NCBI GenBank assembly: GCA_963281255.1
Contig: OY725498.1
Span: forward strand, 4,650,001-4,714,000
Direction: 5' to 3'
DNA length: 64,000 nt
Source of the DNA: Aphrocallistes beatrix
Taxonomy: Eukaryota > Porifera > Hexactinellida > Sceptrulophora > Aphrocallistidae
A program made the translations under genes and the position numbers. Below are positions 1 to 16,360 of this stretch, piece by piece. The notes under the pieces were generated by a model that was not told the DNA's origin, did no database searches, and was given only the letters and a program-made list of their open reading frames with translations. Numbering within the stretch: the stretch's first letter is position 1; every line of letters begins with the position of its first letter.

Positions 1-988
1 CACGCCTTGTGGTGGTACAACGCTGTCCAGCCGTTCCAACACACGCGAAAAGCATAGAGCGAACTGCCATCTCGACATCTGCATCATCATTCACAATCAA
101 TGCATTATTCCCGCCTAACTCAAGCAGATGCCTTCCAAACCGTTCTTGTACTGTAGTGCCAACTTGACGTCCAACCTCAGTACTCCCTGTGAACGACAAT
201 AAGTCCACACGTCTATCCTTAGCCATCTCCTGTCCGATATTTGCACCGCCTGAGACTAGAGAACAGATACTGCCTGGGTGGCCATTAGCTTCGAGGACAG
301 ATTGAATGATACGCGTGATGGCTATGGAGACGAGGGGTGAGGTGGGGGCTCCTTTCAACAGAGTACAGTTGCCACAGACAAGCGAGAGTGTATGATTCCA
401 CCCGAACACTGCAGCGGGGAAATTGAAGGCAGTGATGATGCCAATGAGACCAAGAGGGTTCCAGTTTTCAAGCAGCATATGGCCAGGACGCTCGGAAGGC
501 ATGACACTACCCCCCAACATCCTACTGAGGCCGACAGCAAAATCGCACATGTCAATGTACTCCTGAACTTCGCCTATCCCTTCGGGCAGGATTTTGCCTA
601 CCTCCAGACTTAGGAGCTTTCCGAGGTCTTCTAGCTTCGCGCGAAGTGCTCCTCCAACTTGACGTACTATTTCCCCTCTCTTTGGACCAGGGATGAGTGA
701 CCATTGCTTCCAGGCCTCCCGTGACTTCACTACCGTGTCATTATACTCCTGAATGGTTCCGAATGTCACGTGCGCAATAGGTTCGTTGGTGGTAGGAGAG
801 TATGAAGTAACTTTCTCACCGCTCCCACCCCAAGCACCGTTGAAAACTCCGTGGTTGTTCTCTTCGATCCCAAGGCGCTTTAGGAAGGAGTATTTGGGAT
901 TGTTCACGAGTAGAGAGAAATAGCGGATGTTAGAATGTTGGAAGTTGGAGTGACGAAGCCTGAAAGCTGAAGATATAATGCGCTGCAT
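1..988 (-). CDS. ALDH7A1: ALDH7A1 (antiquitin), alpha-aminoadipic semialdehyde dehydrogenase, 5' part
   Basis: About 329 codons read open on the minus strand from ATG at 988 to the window edge, so the C-terminus is missing. The family oxidises alpha-aminoadipic semialdehyde in lysine breakdown and also betaine aldehyde, in mitochondria and cytosol. Visible signatures are the NAD-fold stretch [13 protein letters not shown], the [12 protein letters not shown] loop, the ELGGNNA motif carrying the general-base glutamate, and GTAGQRCTT with the catalytic cysteine near the left edge. Antiquitin-specific matches include KGAPTSPL and [13 protein letters not shown]. The N-terminus ([15 protein letters not shown]) is rich in Arg and Ser without acids, as in a mitochondrial targeting peptide. 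No intron is seen. An AG lies directly before the start codon. Identity is firm. Confidence 0.93.
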
Positions 989-1379
989 TCTTAAAGTACA
1001 AATTCTCGCAATTATTTAAAGTATTGGTACATAAAAAGGACCAGTTCAGTCGTATAGTAAGTAGAGAACGTAGAGAAATATTATTATAATTATTAAGAAA
1101 AGTATGACAATGTATAAATAACTAGCAAAGAATATATAAAAAGTTGCTACAAATTATAAATATGAAAAGTTGCTACAAATTATGTATAGAAATATTGTCC
1201 TACTATTAGAAAGTAACAAAGGATAAATAAAGAAGTTCAACTATATAATACGAATAATAAGAACAGCTCCATCCATATCAGCTTAAAAGATGCATTAATT
1301 AAATATTTTTTATTTGAACTAAGTTCGCAGCTTCGAACTTAGCATTTTGGGGAAATGTTTCGATGTATAATTATCTTAA
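989..1379. other. Intergenic, ALDH7A1 5' flank and sacsin-PARP 3' flank
   Basis: About 390 bases of very AT-rich sequence between the start of ALDH7A1 and the stop codon of the sacsin-PARP gene, both on the minus strand. It must hold the 3' untranslated region of the upstream gene and the start region of ALDH7A1. It contains an imperfect short direct repeat (aaaagttgctacaaattat twice near 1139-1183). No ORF, RNA gene or clear promoter element was recognised. Confidence 0.6.
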
Positions 1380-4300
1380 TCAACAAAGTTTGTATGTTAT
1401 GAGGTAGCTCGGGTAAGCCAAGCAGTCCTCATATAGGATGTAAACCTTGGTGTTTCCTGTTACTCCATTCACAGAATGGTAACCGGGAGGGGGTGAGGAA
1501 ATACTATCATTTTGTGCTAATTTCTTGGAGTTTCCAACAAATACTTTGGCCATAAACATACAGTATTCGTCTTCTGACACTTGATAAGCATAGTCATGTG
1601 AATAAGCTGCATTTACAGCGAAATATATCCCCTTACCCCAAAGACCAACCCCTGAAAAACTGATTTGAAAGCCTAAAGGGCTATCTGATATTAAATGTGG
1701 ATTTGTACTGGACGATCCGTGGAACAAAGGTTTGATCAAGAGAGACCCTTCAGGGAGAGGTGGGGTTCCAGTTGTCATTTGAAATTTTGATTCGACTTTT
1801 TGTTTGAAATGGGTCCAACAATCTTTGTTGTGTATCTTTTTAATGTGAACAATCTCTGCATTTGTGAGACACTCTAAAAATCTCCTAGCTACTGCGTAAT
1901 ACTCCTCACAATCTTCGGACAGTATCTCGAATTTAATATCAGACCTGATATGAACTAAAGAGAGAAAATGTGTAAAAATACATTATACAATATACTAATC
2001 AAACTAGGACTTACAGTTTTCCAATTGAGTTTTCAACAAAGATTTAATGGGAGGGCATTCCCAAACCTTGTCTTCATCTTTAAACATCAATTCGCCGATA
2101 CGAGGAAAGGAGCATTGTATAAGTTTTAAAATATTGCTTGCATTCGCAATTGCTTCTTCAGCTGCTTCTAATGGGTAACACTGAATAGGGATACAGCAAC
2201 CGATGCCTGGAGTCATACAAGGGTCTCTTGCCACTTCGTTATAGTTCATGAGTGGAATACAGAGATCTGCTAGCTTCGACCGCTCTTCATCTCCAGAGAA
2301 AAACTGTTTAACTATCTCGATTATAATATCAAGATTTCGTTCAGCTGAAATATTCACTTGGTAGAATCTATGCAGACATATTATCGCAATACAGGCCTTG
2401 ATGGCACAATCGAAACAGTGGAAGCAGGCATGAGAAGCATAAACGCTTGGATCATTTTCGCACTTGTGTATCAGCTTTTGTGCTGCTCTCAAATCGCACT
2501 GTGCTGTCCTTATCCACAGCTGTGCTGTATGTGTGTCATGAGAAGTTATGGCGGTGGCTTCAATGCTTGAAGATGGAACAACAGAATGAGAAGACGAAGG
2601 GAGAGCGGATGAATATATCGCGGGAGATGAGTGCGTTGGAATTGTAGCAGGTATAGATGTTGGTGCATGACTGGGAGTAGGAATATGAACTACACTTTTA
2701 CGTGAATGAAATCTCTTGAATAGTTTAGCTCTAGTCATCCCTGTACTGCTGGGTGGAGCTGTTGCTGCTGATGTACTGTTGTCTAGGTGTGGACATTGAG
2801 ATATGTTGAACGAATTGAGAGTTTCTGTAATCTTGTCACTAGTTAAGCAACTATGTAAATAAAATAAATTTTGACTAAAAATATCTCCAAGACAGCTGTT
2901 AATAATCGTTGTCAGATCACGAAATATAGCCATTGAATCGTCTGTTTCGTAAGCATAAATGATTGAATGCTCTTTGAAACACTGGTAGATATCTTTTCGA
3001 GTTAATCCCGTTCCGTCTTTTAGACAGGTTACCTCGATATCTATACTATTCACAGCGACAACCTTTAATTCATTCAAGATTTGGGAAACTGATTTGAAAC
3101 TTGGATCAAGTGTTTGGTCGCTATCGTAAGAAACAGTATTATCTTTTATTTTGATAAATTTCAGGTTATCTTTTCCATTTGACTTTGTCTCATGATAATA
3201 TATCCGAATCAGACCATTCATAAATTCATCCGCTCTCAATATATTTTGAATAAATTTACTGGAATCTGAAGTAAAATATCCATTTCGTGTTTTATCAGCC
3301 AAGGATTCTTGTATCAGTGAACTCAAGCCTGTAATTTGAAGGCATTTTGGAGGTTCACATGAACCAAGGATATTAGGCGGGAGTTCATGCAATAATTCTA
3401 AGTTTGAAAGGACTGGGAATTGTCCAAGATGAATCATCAATTTAGTATTGTCAATATATATCACATCAGAACGAGGAATTATGTTGAAATTCTGTGTAAA
3501 TACTAGAATATTTGTGAGGTTAAGCTGAATTGTTTGATTGGATGATTCTAACTCCCTTAGAATATTGATAAAAAGCAAGAAAGTCTTCTTTCCAATATTT
3601 TTAATATCTAGTTGGGATAAAGAAGTGTCAGCTAGCAAATCTCCCATTACTGCGGTATAATGGTCGTGGTTGGGGTCATCTTGAACGGCGATCTTCCGTA
3701 AGAAATTGTGGAAATCTGCCAATGTATGTGGAACTTTGAAAAAATAAGGTTTTATTTCATCTTGAGTCTCGAAAACCATATTTCTCGCCATATACAGTTT
3801 CTCGTCATGAAGAATACACTGAGTATTTGGGGGAATACTCCAAGGTAAATCTGTGCTACTTAGATGGGAATAAGAACTGTTGAACAGCTTATTAACAATA
3901 TTCTTCAAACGTGTGTGTGCCAAAACAAAGTTAGTTGAAAGGATTTTGAGATGTTCTACTACGTCGCACGGATCTGGAGTTTGTCTGACTTTGAGAGTAC
4001 CGAATTTTTCAAAGTCTGATCCTACAATTTCCTTGCAGTGTATCCAGGTCACAGTACTGCAGCATGCTGAGTTCACGTGTAAGTTAGCATCAGGAAGACA
4101 ACCTAGTCTGTGTTCTTTCTTAAAATCCGACGAATATTTCCACTGGGAAATAAATGCAATGCTAGCGAACTGATCAATCAAACTTGCAGGTGCAATTTCC
4201 GATTTGAGTAATTTTATAAAAGCTATTAAGGGGAGTAAATTCGTTTTATCCGATTCTTTTCCATTATTTCTCGATGAAACCTGTATAGCGCATTCCTTGA

Positions 4301-7300
4301 TCGTATCAACATCTTCTTCATAATGCAGTCCTAGCTGATACAGAATCTTTGAACATGAGTTGATCCAAGTCTGGGGAATAAGGAAGTCGGAATAAAAAGC
4401 TTGGAACAGTTCAACATCTGGGTTATAGAGTTCATCAACTCGATACTGATCATTTCCTACAGTTATGAAGGGAATCGATCTAAGCTCTTCAATAATACTC
4501 GATTCAAGCTCTTCAATATTATTTTCGATGCATTTAAGTAGAGTTTGCTGTTCAGGAATTGGGAGGTTTCGAAATTGTGGAAATATACATTCAAGGAATA
4601 GATTCTGGAGACTAAGAAGACTAACAGATCGAAAGGAGAGTAATTCTCTCAATTTTCTTTCGTCTTCTTCGGAATTAGCTGAAATGATGTAGATATCAGA
4701 AAAATCTATTTTAGAAATGGTTCCGATCGGAAAGAGATTGAAGTTGATGAAACATTTTTGACATTCTTTAACAGACACTAACTTATTCGTGTTGGTTAGG
4801 AAAATCTTGAGCAAAGAAAATATCGTTAATTCTTGGTTATCATAGGAGTCTTTTTTCTGTAATACTAAACCTCTCAAGCAATTAGCCTCCTGATCACTTA
4901 GCACATTTTCAAGTGATCCAGTTGTTGCAAGGCTGAGTGCATTCACCACATCTCCATACTGAAGGGATTTGTAGATCGTATGCTGATCTAAACAACGACG
5001 CAACATATCTAAATTCACACCTAGCTCTTCTGATACCAGTGATTCTAATGCCAACACAGGACAACCTAATTTTCCCAATGTATTTGATAAAAGTTGAAGC
5101 TTAATATCAAAAATCTCTTCCTGTTTCAGATTTAAGATAGAGGGGAGTTGTGCTATTCTTAGACACTCTACACTCTGACTATCTATTCGCTTGACGGGAA
5201 CTAATTTGTGCTTTCCAAACTTCTGTATTAAGGAGACATTTCGTGAGAGGATAGTACTCACATATCGCCAGAATAGTATGACCCCTTCCAGATCGAGTAA
5301 TTCTGATTTAATATTGTGGATTAAAAATTGAATAGGCAAATCCTCTATGTACCCAGCTTGAGTTAATTGTGAGATTATTGTAACGGGATAAGCCTTGTCG
5401 TAGAATCGTGATTTGAAATGTGGTAGGAGCTTGGCATACTCAGAATTAAAAGTTGTACAAGAAGACTTTGAGAAGGAAGAAAGATTTCTTGACAGATCTA
5501 ACTTCAGTGGAATGTCCCCGTACCCCTTAATAGTTCCGCTATCCGCGGCGAATAGAAACTCTAGTAAGCAAACAATTTCGTCAAAGGACAAGATAGAATT
5601 ATTCTGATCTTTCATTAAAAAAGAAATATTACGATTCAAATAATTCAGAAAATGGAGCTGTTCCACTTTTTGAATCTCATAACCAAACTTACTGAGGCAA
5701 AGAGCAATGTGTTCTGGAGCAACTGTTAACGGATATTTCAGTTTGGTCAAAACCAGATTCAATGGTATTGAAACATCCGATTCTTCCATATTTTCAAAAA
5801 CACCTCGATTCTCCCCTGAAAAAGAATACCATTGTGAATAAGTTTCGTCAACAAGCATTTGCGGGTGAGAGCGATACAACCAAGAAATAAGTTGCTTACT
5901 TAGCAAGAACAGAAAACTAGAATTTTGTGTCTGCCCCTTCTCCAACAACTCCATATTTGGAAATAAGGAATAATACCATTCGAAGTAAAGTGGTACATTC
6001 CAGTTTGAAAATAAATCTTTCAAATGCTTACTTCGGCCGGATTTTAAATCAATCAGTAATGTAGCATAAAGAGGAACAATGACGTGATTTAAGATTCCAA
6101 TATGCCAAACGTCATGCCATTGTTGGTCTTCTGTACTGTCTTTCTCTTGAAACATCAAAAACTGTCTATGAGGATCGACAATAAAAGGTGCATTTATATG
6201 CACAGGGTAATCGTGGTAAGAAACGAAATTCCCAAGAGGAAGGTAGGAATATAAAAACGCTTTTCGTAGGAATTTAGATGCCTCAATAATATCATCAGGA
6301 ATCTTGATGGCGACACCGCCGTATATCGAATGATCAAGTTTCTCATTTTCATATCTACTCTTGTATTTTTTAAGATCTGGATAAACACTCTCTAGTCCTT
6401 GCAAATCTCCCTTAAAATTGTAAATCAGCCAAGAACTATTTTTCACAATGAAAGGTTGATATAATTGAGTCAGTGCACTAAATTGATTCGAATAAATTAT
6501 TGTCTTTTCAACTTCTGTCTCTATCCTTTTTAGAGTTATATGAATTTTGCCCAGGTTTGTTAGAGGCAACATTGAAGGTTCATTAGGAATATGTTGCATT
6601 GATTTACAAGTTAAAGTTCCACATCTTTTAGCAGTTCCTAAATCGATTTCAAATAAGCTGATATTTTTTACTGCTTCAAGAAACAAATTTATCTCGGATC
6701 CTTGGTGTAAAAATTCAGATGTCATCTTTTTGACTTTTTCTGGTATTAGAATATTGGAAAGGAAAGGAATTCTAAAGATCGTAAATTCCCCTTTCAAATC
6801 GGAAAAGTTATTTTTGCAAATATGCTCTTGAGAAGTAATAGCTGACAGAGAAAATGGTTTAAATTGATCTGGGAACTCTGAAAAATTCTCTTCAGTTAAG
6901 TCCAATCTTATTCCAGGAGGCTCAGTTGGAGGAATATTTAAATACTTTCGATAAGGATCGAAAATACAGTAACTATAAACAAACTCACCAGAACTCAACT
7001 TGCGCCTAGTCAGTAGGCAAGGAGACTCTGTGAGATGATACACCGCATTAAATCCTAGCCCGAATTTACCGATCGTATTTTTCGACCGCTTTCCTCCCAA
7101 ACCCACTGATTGTATTCCTGCAAGATCTTCTTCTGTAAACGCTCGGTTATTGTATATCAAAAGAGATGGACATGTTTGATATTCAGGTAAATTTGGCATA
7201 TCTTCGTTAGGGAAACAAAGGGATTCGGAACGGTAAGTTTTTTGGTGATCAATAATTATAGAAAACTCTGATGCAGATGCATCCTCTGCGTTTTGCAGAA

Positions 7301-10300
7301 ACTCTTTGAGTATAGTAGACTCGTTAGGGCAGTCTCTCTTGAAGTTGTCTATACGCGTTGAAATATCTTCATATTGGCCAAACCTATGAATTTGAAATGG
7401 AACATTCGTATAGAGTCGGCTTCTTGAACTAGGAACTTTGAGATTGTGCAAGCAAATCAGAGGAATGTGAGGATGGGCTAGTTTGCAATTTTCAGAAAAC
7501 AACTTCTTTTTCCAAGGCATATCATCTCGGATTAGGTCGCCAACAGAACATAAAGTGTTAGAAGCAGATAAAACGTATTTTAATCTCAGGCCTGAATCAT
7601 CATTATAAAAATCTAGTATTAATCGCAATATTAATCCAGCATCGCCAGGAGATAATGCTCCATTTTTGTAAATTTTCTTCATTGAATTGACAACGTTCAT
7701 TACACAATCAATTTCAATCTCTTTCTTAAGACCTAAACTGTAAAAGAAGTCAAGAGAAATGGAATGTTCACATCGGGTAAAAGGGAAACATGGTAAAAAA
7801 CTGCTTTTAAATCCCTCGTATTGAGAAGATTCTGTAATTTCTGATATCTTGTAAAATGTATTAAAATCAGGATGCCATATCCAATTCTTTCCTAACAGCA
7901 ATTGTTTAACGGAATCTCTTTGGTTCGACAATGTTTCCAAAGAATAGTAGATCTTTAGAACACGCGAAGTAATTTCTTTGGTCAATTTTCGTTCTTTGAT
8001 AATTGTTTCATTCTCATGGAATAAATGAAGAAGATTAATCAAAATATTTTCACTGACATCTGATGGAATTTTAAAGTTGTCATGGAATTTTTTCATGTCC
8101 ATAATCTTTTCATTGATAGAATAGAATTCAGGAGTAATTAAATACCGTGAAATGTACGAAAAACATTTAGTTGGACATGTGTATTTTTTATACTTCTGAA
8201 CTCTCATTTCTGAGAACAGTTTATCTTCCCAAACTGGGATGAAATCAACCTTCTTAACTTCATCATATATCCAAGCCATTCTTGACACTTCCTTGACGTT
8301 CAGAGATTCGATAAGTATCATACAATGAGATAGCCTTTCTTTGTCATCTAAATTTACCTGATTCTTGAGGCGATCCACTACATCTTCAGGAGGTAGTTTC
8401 CCGTGGATAACATGAAGGGACTTTAACGCTTGATAGAAATCACTTTCCTTTTTGAAAAGATGAGCAACAAAAGGGTGTGGTGTCCGCATTTCATTCGGTT
8501 TATATAATGGGGCAAATCTAGATTCTGGACTTATCACCTGTTTGGGAAATTGAAATGTCACATTCTGACCGATACCGCATGGAATACATTTGGTTTGTGA
8601 AAGTAATTCAGAAGCCCATTTCTCCTTGTAATAATGTAAAACAGTTTGAAGAATAAGTTCTACATATTTCAGAGGGATTTTTTGTAAAAATGGGAATAAC
8701 AACTCACGTAAAATACGTTGCATATCAAATAATTTATCGCTGTCATTTGTGAAGATTGTACGAAACACTTCTCTCTCATGAAATTTCTTTGGCAGAGTAA
8801 CAAAATATATTCCTCTTTTCGCACTAAATGCACCAACAAATGACAGAAGATCTTCACGAATTGAAAATGCACTCGTAATAAAGTAATGACAATCTACATA
8901 GCTAAGCCAATCTTCACGATAAAATTCGCTAAAAAAGATTGCAGTGTTGTTTTGGATAATCCGAATCGCAGCAGAGTTAGGAAACTGACGCCATAAAACA
9001 GAGCTATCCTTCTCTAATGGCCAGATCGAATAATAATCATCAATGTTCATGTTTCCCGAGGTCAAAGCCTGTTTTGGGAAGTACTCGCGTATCACCTTCA
9101 AAAGTTCTATCAATGCATTCACGAGTGCATCGTTTATCAAACACGTATTCCACTGTGTCCCACGGCTTCCATCCTCAGTACGACATAGTCCTCTCCGAGA
9201 ATGGTCCAATTCAAAGTAACCGTTGATAGACATTGGGTAAGGTGATGTCGCTGGCAAAGGGAGGAAACAATATAATTTGTGTTCAGTTGCGCGAGAAATT
9301 GTTTCAAAAGGGTTCGTACGAAATGAAATTGAGCAAAAGGGGATACTTGTCCATTTGCTCGGTTTTTTAAAAAAGTCTTGACATTGTTGAGCTCCAGATG
9401 CATACGAAACAATGTACTTCCGAGTGGTTGTAGATTTTCTGTTTTGCTCAAAAATAGTTATCTTTTGATGACACGAGATAGGAACTTTGCAACCGTTAAA
9501 TATTGATTGGAAATGGTCAGAATTACAAGATAGGAATGAATGGTCAGTTGGAAATGGATTCGTGTCAACTTTCTTCTTGAGACTCAGTAGTCGGACAGCT
9601 TTGGCATTGATACTTACTCTTTCATATATTTCTATCGAAGTAACATGCTGGAGAAAACGGATAATATCTTCAGTTTCATCAATGATATTAGAAGCAAATT
9701 TTTTAATTGTTTCCTTTTCATATATTTCCTCTGATATTTTTGATGCTTTATTTCGAAATGGGAGTCGAAACAATGTACCGTTATACTGTTCCCTACAGAA
9801 AACATTGCAATTGAAAAGCTGTAAGTTAAAAACACAAAACTGGTCTTTATAGTTCTTAAGATTGCCATAGTTTTTTGTAAAGTCCACTCTAATTCCAGGC
9901 TTTGGACAGTTCTTGGCAATGTAGCTCATCTGAGGATCCAGAATATGGACATACTTCCCACTAACAAAACTGGGAAGGTCAGTTAGGTGGTAAACCGTGT
10001 TAAATCCCAAACCAAATTTTCCTATTTTAAATACATCGTCCCGCTTGGTTTGTCCAAATATTTTCATTATATTTTTAAAATCCTCGTCAGTGAACTGTGA
10101 ATCATTGTAAAAGTAGATTGCAGGCCCTTGCCATGTCTTCATTGACGGAGTTAATATGGAGTTGGATGGGAATGTTGAATAATCGATCAAAATCTTAACA
10201 GACTTGGCCTTCGCATCATCTGCATTCTGCACAAGTTCCTTGTACACATCAATACTCGATTGGTATTGCTGAAGAATGTTGTTCAGTCTGGTAACCAAAT

Positions 10301-13300
10301 CTTCATACTGACCTACAGAGTCACAAAAACCGAATATATCTTCATCACCTAATAGAGTGAGTTCAAAGGACTTTGCACCCAATTGGATGGCAACGTATAT
10401 GGGAATGTCATCATGCAGGAGATAAAACACTTGGCCATCTTTCTCAATTTGGGAATTATTCGAGGTGCAGCCAGAATCAGAGAAAACACATTCGCTAGCT
10501 AGACGTAATTGATTGTCTTTACACAGAAGATACTTGTTGGTGTGAAAACCATTTTTATGCAAGTGTTTTATAATATTGCCGACCAAATCAATGCAATTAG
10601 AAATACCATATTTCTCGTCCATTTGTTGCCCTCTAAGTTTAAGTAATATGTCATACAACATCTGATCAGTAAGCTCAGCGGATGCACCATGTCGGTGGAA
10701 CAGTTTCCATGCATCATCGCTGTAATTAAGCGAATCAAATGAATAATAAAATGGCTCAAGAGGGAATGGAAATTTAACTTTAACAATCCTTCGGGGACAT
10801 AAAAACATATTTTCACTTTTTAAATACACGAATTCGAACTCTGCATTAATGTTTTCAGAAAGGAGTAAAGGAGAACTGTATATTTTACGTAAATTTTGAT
10901 GAACTTTACTGACATCAGAAACCTCAATTTATTTTTTAGAAATGAGAGACAGTTGTTCGATAAGCATCTTTCCAGAAAGACCAACTTGGCAATTTAGAGA
11001 TGAGAGAAGAGGTTTATAGTTAGGGAGTTCGTTCGCACATATCTTGACGCTAGCTACTAAAGGTATTTCAGACTGTTTACAGAATACAACAGAGCCGATT
11101 TGAACTAAAGATTTCTTTCCAAGAAATGGCAAGCAGTTCGGATAATTTGGCTTTTGATAACATGGCAATACAAGTTTATTGTTGCATAAGGCATCTCTAA
11201 CCACAGGAGTAAGTGATAAAGCATCTGTTTGGCGAAAGATAAATTGGTTTACGAACTTAAGAAGATCAAGGAAGTGTGTTTGGTGCTCAGGATCAGTTCG
11301 AGAAGTATTAAATGAAGATTGGAGATAAACAACCGCAGTCTTGATAACTTCTTCAAAAAGTAATTGATTAATAGAACAAGTTGTAGAATTGAATAATAAT
11401 GCTGATCTGATGTGCTGGGAAAACTGGTTATATTTACAGTGAGGGAAGAATCGTGAATTTGGAGGTAATATTTTTCTCAAAATCTGATCTTCAGGATTAA
11501 AGAGCTCATTCGGCTTACGATACTTCAAATGTGTAGAAGTAACTGAAAAATTAATTGAGTCTACAATCCATTCAAAGTCCTTTAACACAGAGAGAGACTG
11601 CTGTGATAAGAAGCCAAGATTTCTAAGTAAAAATTGGCTCAACGTAAAGTGATCAGACAATTTGTGGTTTTCTTCAAGCGTTTGCATGAAATTAATCAAA
11701 TAATTAGTAACAAAAGTGTCAATATTCGTACAAGGAATTCGCAAGACATTATATAGAGCGTTCACTTTACTATGCAGAGGTGATAGGAAGTGATTTGGAT
11801 AATTCAAGGAGATTGAAGGCAAATCGAAAATTTCAGGAACTCGAACTGTGCCATGAGATAACGATATGTAGTTTTCGGACATGTTAGGGAATATAGGGAG
11901 CTGTTTGATAATTTTGCTCTGATTTGGAGTGAAATCATGTTTTTGATTGAGAATATTTACAATAGTTTGGAAGAGAAGAGCATTATCTTTGGTTCCCAGA
12001 AGTCTAGTAAACTGTTGACAAACAGAGTTACTCTTCTCTAACACCGTTAAAAGCCCATCCGGAAGTGATGGAAATATTAAACGGTCCAAGCATTGGATGA
12101 AACCGTGTTTATACACGAATATACATCCCGATTCCCGTAGGAGCATTTCAACCGATTGATAAGTCGCATCAGAGGAATATTGGATATAAATTCTACTCAT
12201 TACGATTGGTAACAATTGATTGTCTGCTGAACCAATCTCCTCCTTTGGCAGTAAAGGCAGGGCACCTAGTGATTTAGCGAGATTCTGATCTGTTCCTAAG
12301 AATGACCAGACTGATTTGATCCAACTGACGTATGTTGGATTTTGAGAATCCCATAATAAAGTGCCTTCGCATTTATGGAAGACACGAGTTAATGATAACT
12401 TGAATAGTTTAACCAATAAACCAATATCCATTTTGATGTTAGAGATGTCCTTGAGGTTAATAGCAGTGGGATATTTCGTTGCTAATATAAGGAAATATGA
12501 AAACACGTCCAAAGGGATATTGGGATCAACGAAGCTACCATCTAACCCAGGGAAAATATCAATCAAACTCAGTCTAGGTTTGTATATATAGATTGGTTTG
12601 TGCTGATTTGTACTAAATTTTGTCATAGTCGATGATGAGAGAGGAAGTAACGGAATATCTTTGAGTAGTTTTGGGATGCAAAGAGGAGAGAAATTGATGT
12701 CTAAATCGCTAGTGATGTATTTCAGTAGGTTAAGTGAATCCTGAAAATGTGAATTCAATTTTGAAACCAGTCTTTCAGAATCGCAGTTAGTTTTTAGCAA
12801 CGTTCGGAGCAGACATGGTGAGATTATTCTCTCTTCTGTACGACACCGCAGTTCAGGCAATGAATTGAAGATTTCAATAATGTTATTTGGGAGAAAAACA
12901 AATGGTTGCTCTAATGTTTCAAGCACTTCCCCAATAAATTCTTCATATGGTAGGGATTTACCTTCCATTTTCGGGTGATAGATTCCAGAACGAATATCAA
13001 GCCATTTGTCGCAAGGATGTGAATAGATCATTTTACAATTTTGCAATTGTGTTAATCCCTGGTTTACCATAATTGAAACTAAAGACTGTTCGTTTGAAGC
13101 ATCAACTACACAAAACTGATAATGGTATTTATCTGGATTTTCATGGTGAAAACGATGAACAATTATTTGGTGGAAAATGGCATAACAATTAACGCCCAGC
13201 TGTTCAATTAGTACTTTATTCCATTTCGAATCGGTGTCATTAGAATCAGGTGTTGGCCATTTAATTCGGCGCCTGTCATTCGATAGAGCGAAGTAGCCGT

Positions 13301-15022
13301 GTATGTGGAATGGAAAGTGAGAATTCTCGGGAGTTGGGAGGAAACAACATAATTTTCCTGAATTCGAGGTTAGGAAATAAGAGGAAGGGATTTTCAAATT
13401 AAATTTGAAATTCGAAAGTATGTTCTTTATACAAGAGTGTATGTCACCTTCATCCCAATTATAACAATAACTCCAGCAATCACGTTTCGGTAACTGGCCC
13501 ATTTCAATTCCAGTTTCAAATGCCATACCAATCCATGGTATATAGTTTTTTATTTTGTTTTTTCTGTAAAATTCCGACAGATCTTTAGGGGAATGTGGGA
13601 ATCCAATAAGATTAACAACTAGCCATACTCCTTCCTTACCCATCTTTACATGGTTTACTGTTATCGGAAATAGTCTTATCATTATCTTGACTTCATCAGT
13701 CAGATTGTTAATAGGATCTGATAGATCAAGCTTTCCTATTTCATTACTATCGTTAGGCGGAATTTCCACAGAGAAAATGCGCTTAGGAACCTTACTCGCT
13801 TCTTTTTTGATGAAAAGTTCAATCGACTTAACATTTTTTAGAAATACTAAAATAGTTTCTGCCTCTTTCATAAGAGGTTCGAAAAGGGTAGTCATGACCC
13901 GGTCTGTGTCATAGAATTCATTAATTTTGATTTTTGAAACCCAATTTTTGTTCCGAAGAGGAAATCTAAAAATAGTTCCATCGAATTGACTTCTCCCGTC
14001 ATAACCGAAATATGATTTAAAACATTTCTGACTATCGATATTATCTAATTTTTGAAAGAATGTTTTTAGCTTAAAAGACTTCCCAGTGAATTCTGGGTTC
14101 AAGTGTAGATGTGGATCGAGAAAAAGAATTTTATTATCACTGAGAATGATGGGAAAGTCTATAGAAAAAATACTTAAATGGTTTGTTAAAAAAACAAATA
14201 TCTAAAAGAACTAGCATTTACCAGTGATGTGATAAGTAGAAACGAACCCCTGTCCGAACCGACCCACTTTATTGACATCATCCACTTTACCACTCGTGCC
14301 TATGCTATGAATTCCTTCCCAGTCTGAATCTGTAAATTTCGCATTATTCCAAGCATATAACGCCTGCCCTTGGCAGACCGAGAACTTGGGGTCCGCCAGC
14401 TGGTCACAGGGGTACGAAGAGTAGTCGAGGAGGAATGCTACCGCACTTGCTCCGGCATCATCGGCATTCTGTATCATTTCCTATATTGGCCAAAAATACA
14501 ATAATCGGATTCATAAAATGAGAAATTTGTGAAGCTAGGAGTGTTGCAAATCTCCGTCCGACCCTCCTCTCATACCGGAGCACCAGTGTCAACCTAGTAA
14601 CCTCCGGAATTCTAACCGGATCCTAAACTTTTCGACCGGACAGGATCGCAATGGTTGGGAATCGGGATTATATTTACCTTCAGTATCTGACTGCCATCTG
14701 GATAATTCTCGAGGATATTTTGGATATAAGTGATGAGAGGTGGGACTGTTATTGTAATATCTTCCTCACCTAATGTAAAAAAGTGGAAAACGATAATCAT
14801 ACAATTGATCTCTGATTTGTATTCGGAAAAACAAAAATGGATTTTACCATCACTTGAGTCATCACTACCAGCACCTAAAATGCACACAAAATATTATAAA
14901 ACAATTAAAAGGATGCGAGTGAGAATATCAATCTATCCCTTCGACTTACTTGATGTCTGTCTACGTTTTGGAAAGTTTACATCGCTAGGTGCTTGACGTT
15001 TTCTACCTTGATTAGTCGCCAT
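1380..15022 (-). CDS. Sacsin-like giant protein with HEPN and C-terminal PARP catalytic domain (fusion)
   Basis: Six exons inferred on the minus strand: 15022-14950, 14874-14848, 14769-14678, 14480-14222, 14158-2015, 1954-1380. All joins have GT/AG ends and matching phase. About 4,390 codons; human sacsin has about 4,580. Three sacsin repeat modules carry HSP90-type ATP-binding motifs: EMIQNADDAGAS with KVGRFGQGF (about 14480-14230), ELVQNADDAKAK with KIGKFGLGF (about 10240-10010), and EFLQNAEDASAS with TIGKFGLGF (about 7310-7060). A sacsin-type HEPN domain lies at about 2560-2110. The last exon adds a PARP fold: FHGSS, GKGIYFAV, PPPGYHSV and AYPSYLITY, like PARP14. No ubiquitin-like N-terminus and no J domain are seen. 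A single in-frame TAA at 10929-10931 interrupts exon 5, so the product may be two proteins, a readthrough protein, or a broken gene. Sacsins are chaperone-like; the PARP role is inferred. Confidence 0.8.
10929..10931 (-). other. In-frame TAA inside the large sacsin-PARP exon
   Basis: On the minus strand the frame reads through ...LSLISKK, then TAA, then IEVSDVSKVHQN in the same phase. Sacsin-like sequence continues on both sides with no frameshift and no gap in the usual pattern (a VGLS...IEQLSLI block followed by a KVHQNLRKIY helix). A run of six A lies just before it, but an indel there would change frame. The only GT...AG interval of about 60 nt over it would delete the conserved block. 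It may be a nonsense mutation, a sequencing error, or a real end of an upstream gene. Confidence 0.75.
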
Positions 15023-15922
15023 GTCTCACTACCTCGCTAAATAGTCAAACTGATCCATAATCAAAATATACACATGCACCTGATGAAAAGTTGAGATCGA
15101 GATATTATTGCGACATTTGAGAAACAAGGTTTAAAGTAAAATTTTTATTCTTACTTTTTATATTAAATAGATTAGTTTTTCCAAATCTATGCTATTTACC
15201 AAACTTGACCACGTTAATTCCAAGTGGAAAATTGGTACTATATGGTTCAACCCCCCCCCCCCAATAGACGAGTTTACCTGGTCTTAGAGTATAAAGGGCT
15301 GCATATTTATGATAAATAAACTCAACACAAGTTGGAATAATCTAATCGCTCTAAAGACGATGAATTTATTTATTTGTACTTCAATGAACATAATTATATT
15401 ATAGAAATAACGATTATTTCACATTCTAGCCGACCATACTTTGTATCATGGTCAACTTGTGATTGGTGTCTGATTGAGCTATCTACTTCAAAGTTCATAG
15501 TAGATTGTTGACACAGTTGAAGTCAGGTGATCAAATAATGGTTAATAAATATATCGGCCACCTTTTAATTCACAACAAGAAGTTAACATGCTTCCACAGT
15601 CTAGGTTTAATTATGAAGAATAGACCTGCGGAATTGAATGTGTTCCAGTATACTCCGTTATCGAATAGCTCTCATGTGTACAATTTTATGGTGACTTTAA
15701 GACTGCGAACTTTCGCGTATCTTCCATGTTGCTGAATAATGTTACCGACTTGTTATAAGTCCATTTCCTCGCAATGCTAGACAAACTCTAGCCTACTTAA
15801 GGGCAAATTAATTAGTAATATTCGGTCAGATTACCAATACTTACGTAATCAGTTGGATATCTTATGTTAATCAAATACCAATAATCAGTATAGGTCATAA
15901 CCTTATCTTATAATTATTGAGA
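15023..15922. other. Divergent intergenic region between sacsin-PARP and TMEM42-like genes
   Basis: About 900 bases separating two divergently transcribed genes, so it probably holds both promoters. It is AT-rich and includes a homopolymer of about ten C at 15251. On the minus strand a TTTAG lies 14 bases before the sacsin-PARP ATG. One chance ORF (15505-15735, plus) has no recognisable similarity and is not called as a gene. Confidence 0.5.
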
Positions 15923-16360
15923 ATGCAATTAATTGACAAAACCTCAATTTGCATTAGCCAGCGTTCTTCCATTGTCATTCAGATGAAGATACTGGCCGAT
16001 GGAGTTATTTTGTCTTCGATGGCAGGATTATTCGCAGCAATGGCTGCAGTGTTCTCCAAGCTTGCTTTTGACTCGGATTACCTCTCAGACGTAGAGCCGC
16101 CACATCTTGGAGTTGCTGGCTGTGTTATTATGGTCATCATTTGTAATGTATTAATGTGGCTATTGTTCGTTAGAAGTCTCCATTTCGCATCTTCAGTAGC
16201 GATTGCGATGATCATAAACACCACAACGAATTTCTTAATGACTGGAGTATTGGGTTATTTCGTGTTCAAAGAAGAAATAAAGTTGACATGGTGTTTTGGT
16301 GTATTTTGTATGGTATTTGGTGCTATGTTATTGAATCGAGGAGCAACTAAGAATATTTGA
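15923..16360 (+). CDS. TMEM42: TMEM42-like multispan membrane protein
   Basis: An intronless ORF of 145 codons from the first ATG; a second in-frame ATG at 15983 gives 126 residues and starts almost directly at the first membrane helix, so the start is uncertain. The protein has four hydrophobic segments typical of half an EamA/drug-metabolite-transporter unit. Matches to the TMEM42 pattern include GLFAAMAAVFSKLAFDSD early, LMWLLFVRSLHFASSVAIA in the middle, the TTNFLMTGVLGYFVFKEE block, and a final helix ending FGAMLLNRG. Human TMEM42 has about 159 residues. Its function is not established; it is probably an integral membrane protein of the secretory pathway. It is divergent from the sacsin-PARP gene. 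Confidence 0.75.
   Translation: MQLIDKTSICISQRSSIVIQMKILADGVILSSMAGLFAAMAAVFSKLAFDSDYLSDVEPPHLGVAGCVIMVIICNVLMWLLFVRSLHFASSVAIAMIINTTTNFLMTGVLGYFVFKEEIKLTWCFGVFCMVFGAMLLNRGATKNI

Follow-up and report, generated by a model that had tools for sequence, protein, structure and literature searches.

Does the last exon of a giant sacsin-like gene in a glass sponge splice into a PARP catalytic domain, or do two separate transcripts lie side by side? The question is raised by positions 15022 to 1380, on the minus strand, of a 64,000-nucleotide stretch of the Aphrocallistes beatrix genome (assembly GCA_963281255.1, contig OY725498.1, positions 4,650,001 to 4,714,000), the whole of which is called the window below. 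A first-pass annotation had proposed that a single gene here combines sacsin-type ATPase modules, a HEPN domain and a PARP tail. This proposal is supported by Pfam matches, by the predicted fold of the HEPN domain and by a HEPN-PARP junction conserved in seven of seven genes, and on these sequence grounds the HEPN-sacsin/PARP fusion in glass sponges is real.

A conserved junction in seven paralogous genes

The 47 SACS matches in the genome (100.5 Mb) group into 11 sacsin-like loci, at seven of which, the window gene included, a HEPN domain is followed by a PARP domain. All seven have the HEPN domain within a giant exon, and the seven best genome matches of the window PARP exon (itself included) are these same loci, where they lie downstream on the same strand. 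At each of the seven junctions the donor N|GTAAGT comes after the first base of a codon (phase 1), this codon being at the same place in the alignment, and the acceptor reads AG|T. The introns measure 60, 425, 2382, 522, 1597, 370 and 2374 nt. As codon, phase and donor are conserved in all seven, the join across the 60-nt intron of the window gene is not due to chance. The coordinates first proposed for it, namely a GTAAGT donor at 2014, an intron from 2014 to 1955 and an in-phase PARP exon from 1954 to 1380, hold. A chance neighbourhood, or an assembly join confined to the window, is ruled out by the six further genomic loci and by Oopsacas minuta, two gene models of which (P0003 and P0005) join the HEPN and PARP domains.

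The same observations bear on the proposal that the HEPN-sacsin and the PARP are separate transcripts, with the HEPN exon ending at the TAG near 2004. Reading through the donor does lead to a stop after the residues CKS, and within about 15 codons past the donor in the other six genes, so that intron retention could yield an isoform lacking the PARP domain. However, the two exons of the window gene are a mere 60 nt apart, the PARP exon encodes 58 residues ahead of its first in-frame methionine, and the sole AATAAA in the 183 nt scanned falls after the PARP stop. Moreover, donor, phase and acceptor are conserved in all seven genes over introns of very different length, and the two Oopsacas models contain the join. 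We therefore regard separate transcripts as highly improbable and retain the single spliced gene.

Synonymous divergence (dS) is saturated for most pairs of paralogues, and dN/dS values were confined to the three closest pairs, those among paralogues C, D and F. The values are 0.12-0.15 for PARP and 0.19-0.24 for HEPN, and by this measure the PARP exons evolve under purifying selection.

The four remaining loci are G on C20, H and I on C8, and J on C7. In each of them the open frame stops short of the HEPN domain, in H about 50 codons sooner than in its near-copy I, and the genome-wide PARP scan listed no PARP at any of them. A search of the whole genome with the HEPN model PF05168 gave no match, which reflects the low sensitivity of this model here and not an absence of HEPN domains. 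For this reason the four loci were rechecked by tblastn, the queries being nine HEPN and nine PARP sequences, and neither domain was found at E up to 0.01 in the last 5.6-6.0 kb of each locus (L052-L055), stretches that continue for about 3 kb after the open frame closes; self-matches served as the positive control. Two near-identical HEPN-less sacsin genes lie in inverted orientation about 35 kb apart, at C8:2929966-2941104 (plus strand), where an in-frame TGA interrupts the last SACS module, and at C8:2976503-2986722 (minus strand), where the frame ends about 50 codons early. Four SACS modules rather than three are seen at C7:1094091-1105164, C20:1535861-1547451 and C7:1848552-1859235, and in Oopsacas P0005.

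Gene model of the window copy

The model of the window gene has six exons with 4389 codons ahead of the final stop. It encodes three Hsp90-like ATPase modules of the SACS type, followed by a HEPN domain of divergent sequence and by a PARP catalytic domain that is complete. Its features, all on the minus strand, are as follows.

14950..15022, minus: exon 1, with the ATG at 15022 and a basic, KR-rich N-terminus similar to that of Oopsacas minuta P0003 (gene model)
14848..14874, minus: exon 2, 27 nt, acidic and serine-rich, with a comparable stretch in P0003 (gene model)
14678..14769, minus: exon 3, in which SACS module 1 begins (gene model)
14222..14480, minus: exon 4, N-terminal half of SACS module 1 with the ATP-binding motifs QNADDA and GRFGQGF (SACS match 14205-14483, E 6.3e-29)
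2015..14158, minus: exon 5, the giant exon of 12144 nt, with the remainder of SACS module 1 (to about 13779), SACS modules 2 and 3, a linker and the HEPN domain
10929..10931, minus: in-frame TAA at codon 1227 of 4389, by which the giant exon is divided into open frames of 1090 and 2974 codons
9618..10304, minus: SACS module 2 (PF25794, E 1.7e-69)
6624..7370, minus: SACS module 3 (PF25794, E 8.8e-44)
2016..2540, minus: divergent HEPN domain, with Arg in the presumed RNase His column (domain scans, predicted fold, alignment)
1955..2014, minus: phase-1 intron of 60 nt, T|GTAAGT ... TTTAG|TT (junction comparison)
1380..1954, minus: exon 6, with the PARP catalytic domain and the final TGA at 1382-1380 (Pfam, profile, structure, triad alignment)
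1309..1314, minus: polyadenylation signal AATAAA, 68 nt past the start of the PARP stop codon

A Pfam scan of the two big open frames recovered PARP (PF00644, E 2.1e-23) and SACS (PF25794, E 2.2e-114 and 1.4e-19), the SACS matches falling at 14483-13779 (in two pieces), 10304-9618 and 7370-6624. All three modules retain the motifs QNA(D/E)DA and G(R/K)FG(Q/L)GF, which we take to be those of GHKL ATP binding. Over its whole length the window gene is 41% identical to P0003 (4292 aligned positions). Exon 1 (15022-14950) contains a basic RK-x10-KRR stretch, a similar one being present in P0003, and we presume this to be a candidate bipartite nuclear localisation signal. The gene is flanked by an aldehyde dehydrogenase gene at window positions 2-1015 on the minus strand (Pfam E 1.7e-72) and, at 15914-16360 on the plus strand, by an EamA-like exon just below the Pfam cut-off (26.2 versus 28.2 bits).

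The in-frame stop codon

The TAA at codon 1227, which the first-pass annotation had passed over, raises a question about this copy in particular. No stop is present in the aligned segment around it in any of ten paralogues. The database protein P0002, which is 99% identical to the window gene (2390 of 2406 aligned positions), starts at codon 1793 and does not cover the site. The window copy may be a null allele, a polymorphic allele or an assembly error; the gene may be broken in this individual, and the full protein possibly not made. The claim for the family is independent of this copy because it rests on the other six genes and on Oopsacas.

We give somewhat under even chances to the view that, in an otherwise functional family, this one copy is either a pseudogene or a null allele that segregates, in which the TAA truncates the product after SACS module 1 and no PARP domain is made. 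A lone stop in an otherwise open model of 4389 codons, against ten stop-free paralogues, is in keeping with this, as is the start of P0002 at codon 1793 despite six Met codons between 1227 and 1793, which may mean that a further assembly has an upstream interruption too. That start may, however, merely be the choice of a gene-caller, and no further stop occurs elsewhere in the model, which has intact splice sites, ATP motifs, PARP triad and polyadenylation signal; in the tree, the branch of the window gene (0.64) does not exceed that of its sister P0004 (0.66).

Alternatively, the TAA could be removed with an unrecognised short in-frame intron. Seventeen GT-AG pairs of 40-200 nt and of a length divisible by three span it, the shortest being 10950-10909 (42 nt). 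The 177-nt pair at 11080-10904 opens with GTAAAC, a donor of the GTAAA type, which three of the five introns of the gene also have. This pair, however, has a poor acceptor (TAAAG) and would cost 59 codons that partly align with paralogue A and P0003, and the donors of the remaining 16 pairs differ from the GTAAG and GTAAA types found in the five introns. As the nearest paralogue, A, is also open throughout the segment, such a mini-intron seems improbable.

Relatives in Oopsacas and the age of the fusion

The first-pass annotation had recommended looking for the same architecture in other sponges, and two Oopsacas minuta proteins with the HEPN-PARP join were found. With the HEPN-PARP region as query, 11 proteins were recovered at an E-value of 0.001 or below. 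Two of them are annotated Oopsacas proteins with SACS and PARP, 46% and 40% identical over 98% and 95% of the region. These are P0003 (4433 aa) and P0005 (5363 aa), which share both architecture and join with the window gene and, unlike it, have no TAA; P0005 differs further in its fourth SACS module. The join in them is that of annotated gene models, and the available part of the Oopsacas genome paper describes gene prediction with Braker and Augustus and the mapping of transcriptomic reads. The other nine are unnamed single-exon predictions (source 'ena') ending just after the HEPN domain, in which a spliced PARP exon would be undetectable. In all nine the frame continues into CK, CE or SK, the residues expected from a GTAAG or GTGAG donor in phase 1 (judged for seven from the protein ends alone), and two of them correspond to genes treated here, P0002 being the window gene or a near-copy and P0010 being paralogue A. 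A search with the whole of P0003 recovered 21 proteins (E up to 1e-10), with PARP listed for P0003 alone, and a PARP-only search for giant proteins likewise returned P0003 alone. Both missed P0005, the PARP domain of which is 47% identical, and hence constitute a weak test of the absence of the fusion outside glass sponges.

For the last SACS module a tree of 26 rows, 13 of them labelled, was built; it included 13 of 24 protein ids together with slices of P0003 and P0005 and left out P0001 (the window itself), P0002, P0008, P0014, P0017, P0018, P0022, P0023 and P0024. The nine PARP-bearing and four HEPN-less rows are separated by a single change. Oopsacas P0005 is the partner of paralogue B (100/100), and the window gene, paralogue A and P0003 form one clade (100/98); the main groups recur in the HEPN tree and, less well supported, in the PARP tree. 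By tree topology, the fusion predates at least two gene duplications as well as the divergence from Oopsacas. The HEPN-less genes branch from within the PARP-bearing ones (90/93, below the strong-support mark of the tool), which favors one gain of the fusion and one later, joint loss of HEPN and PARP.

Predicted activities of the HEPN and PARP domains

In the domain check on the joined gene the SACS and PARP domains were found by Pfam and the HEPN domain was marginal, scoring just under the cut-off in a single-domain scan (20.8 versus 22 bits, E 4.5e-4) and being backed by a predicted fold similar to that of the human sacsin HEPN (3o10). A PDB profile search with the HEPN alignment gave no match at E up to 10. 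The presumed RNase His column (Rx4-6H), assigned from the HNL motif of outgroup rows, has Arg in all 15 rows of the sacsin-PARP clade with a letter there (one row is gapped), and His in three and Ser in two of five outgroup rows; P0002 and P0010 were omitted, their genes being already represented by the window gene and paralogue A, and P0021 was viewed unaligned. The arginine makes RNase activity of this HEPN look unlikely. The human sacsin HEPN likewise has no RNase motif, and RNA binding has been proposed for it, according to the accessible part of PMC3710099.

The nearest catalytic profile of the PARP domain is that of PARP12 (E 9e-26), with a Foldseek match to PARP12 at E 1e-9. Its catalytic triad is H-Y-V in three and H-Y-I in six of the nine PARP domains of the family, and H-Y-E in both controls from the same genome (tankyrase-like and PARP1-like). 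Loss of the triad glutamate marks mono-ADP-ribosylation, and the H-Y-(V/I) triad accordingly predicts this activity. The same substitution would also suit a pseudoenzyme in which the PARP tail binds NAD+ or protein, the inactive PARP13 having V at the third triad position. Inactivity of PARP13, however, goes with loss of H, and H and Y are both retained in nine of nine domains here, with strong purifying selection in the measurable pairs, so that we consider a pseudoenzyme unlikely.

Outside the family the nearest PARPs in the genome are the copies on C11 and C9 (35-38% identity), and the two scanned nearest genes, L007 on C11 and L048 on C9, are of the macro-WWE-PARP type, genes of which kind are the likely source of the PARP domain of the family. 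By contrast, no macro or WWE domain, such as would mark a PARP14-type protein, was reported by Pfam in the window frames or P0003. Three tandem PARP genes with open frames above 1000 codons occupy C11:4343373-4361849, an arrangement similar to PARP14 clusters reported in other animals; the scanned member, L007, has macro, WWE and PARP (PARP14-like).

Proposed function and comparison with known systems

We consider it reasonably probable that these genes form a glass-sponge family of giant multidomain proteins, with GHKL/Hsp90-like ATPase modules, HEPN and PARP linked through a conserved phase-1 intron, acting in stress or defence by mono-ADP-ribosylation. The architecture, the conserved splice site, its occurrence in paralogues and in Oopsacas, and the retention of the motifs are evident from the sequences. 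ATPase and ADP-ribosyltransferase activities are expected from the retained motifs; the coupling between them, the clients and a stress or immune role are inferred. In such a protein the SACS modules and HEPN would recognise or bind a client or stress cue, the HEPN serving for binding or dimerisation and not as an RNase, and the PARP tail would mono-ADP-ribosylate the client, its neighbours or itself as output, perhaps serving stress or anti-invader defence by analogy with clade-3 PARPs (PARP12/14). More tentatively, and with the balance somewhat against it, one ancestral fusion may have given rise to a multigene set of giant sensors for immunity or stress, with Hsp90-like ATPase modules and an RNase-dead HEPN gating a mono-ADP-ribosyltransferase, followed by duplication and by later joint loss of HEPN and PARP in one subfamily. 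To our knowledge, the sacsin ATPase modules and HEPN have no settled biochemical output. The conserved fusion proposes one, in which recognition of a client or stress is read out as ADP-ribosylation.

The pairing of sacsin-like and clade-3 PARP proteins is a new combination of two known families, conserved and, as judged from dN/dS, apparently under selection. The earlier statement that no sacsin with a PARP domain has been described stands insofar as no paper on such a fusion, nor any pairing Oopsacas minuta with sacsin, was found in open-licence PMC (by title or abstract start, among the matches listed), and does not stand for databases, where P0003 and P0005 already bear the names 'Sacsin-like' and 'Poly [ADP-ribose] polymerase' of both families.

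Human sacsin (SACS) has in common with the window gene the SACS repeats and a C-terminal HEPN of the same fold (3o10). The first-pass annotation had listed a J domain among the parts of sacsins, and none was seen here: no DnaJ domain, which canonical sacsin has ahead of its HEPN, was found in the big open frames of the window (E up to 0.01), P0003 (E up to 10) or paralogue P0010 (E up to 0.01), and no ubiquitin-like domain in P0003 at E up to 10; the N-box of SACS module 1 is already at residue 68 of the window gene. On account of the missing DnaJ domain we do not class this gene as a canonical sacsin. Human sacsin has a ubiquitin-like domain at its N-terminus and also a DnaJ domain, as given in the accessible text of PMC3710099, and the PARP tail is an addition of the sponge proteins. 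The same text describes sacsin-DEATH proteins of the demosponge Amphimedon, which, as here, join a sacsin-like part to an immunity-related domain, but with DEATH in that place and PARP unmentioned in that portion of the paper. Clade-3 PARPs (PARP12/13/14/15) have the nearest catalytic domain, and SACS and HEPN here replace the macro and WWE domains of the scanned genome copies. Closest in combining HEPN and PARP in one polypeptide are the cnidarian HEPN-TRADD-N-macro-PARP proteins, proposed to be immune effectors in the available part of PMC8195603; they differ in TRADD-N and macro, which Pfam did not report for the window frames or P0003. With this family, the pairing of HEPN and PARP within a large protein extends to glass sponges among the animals.
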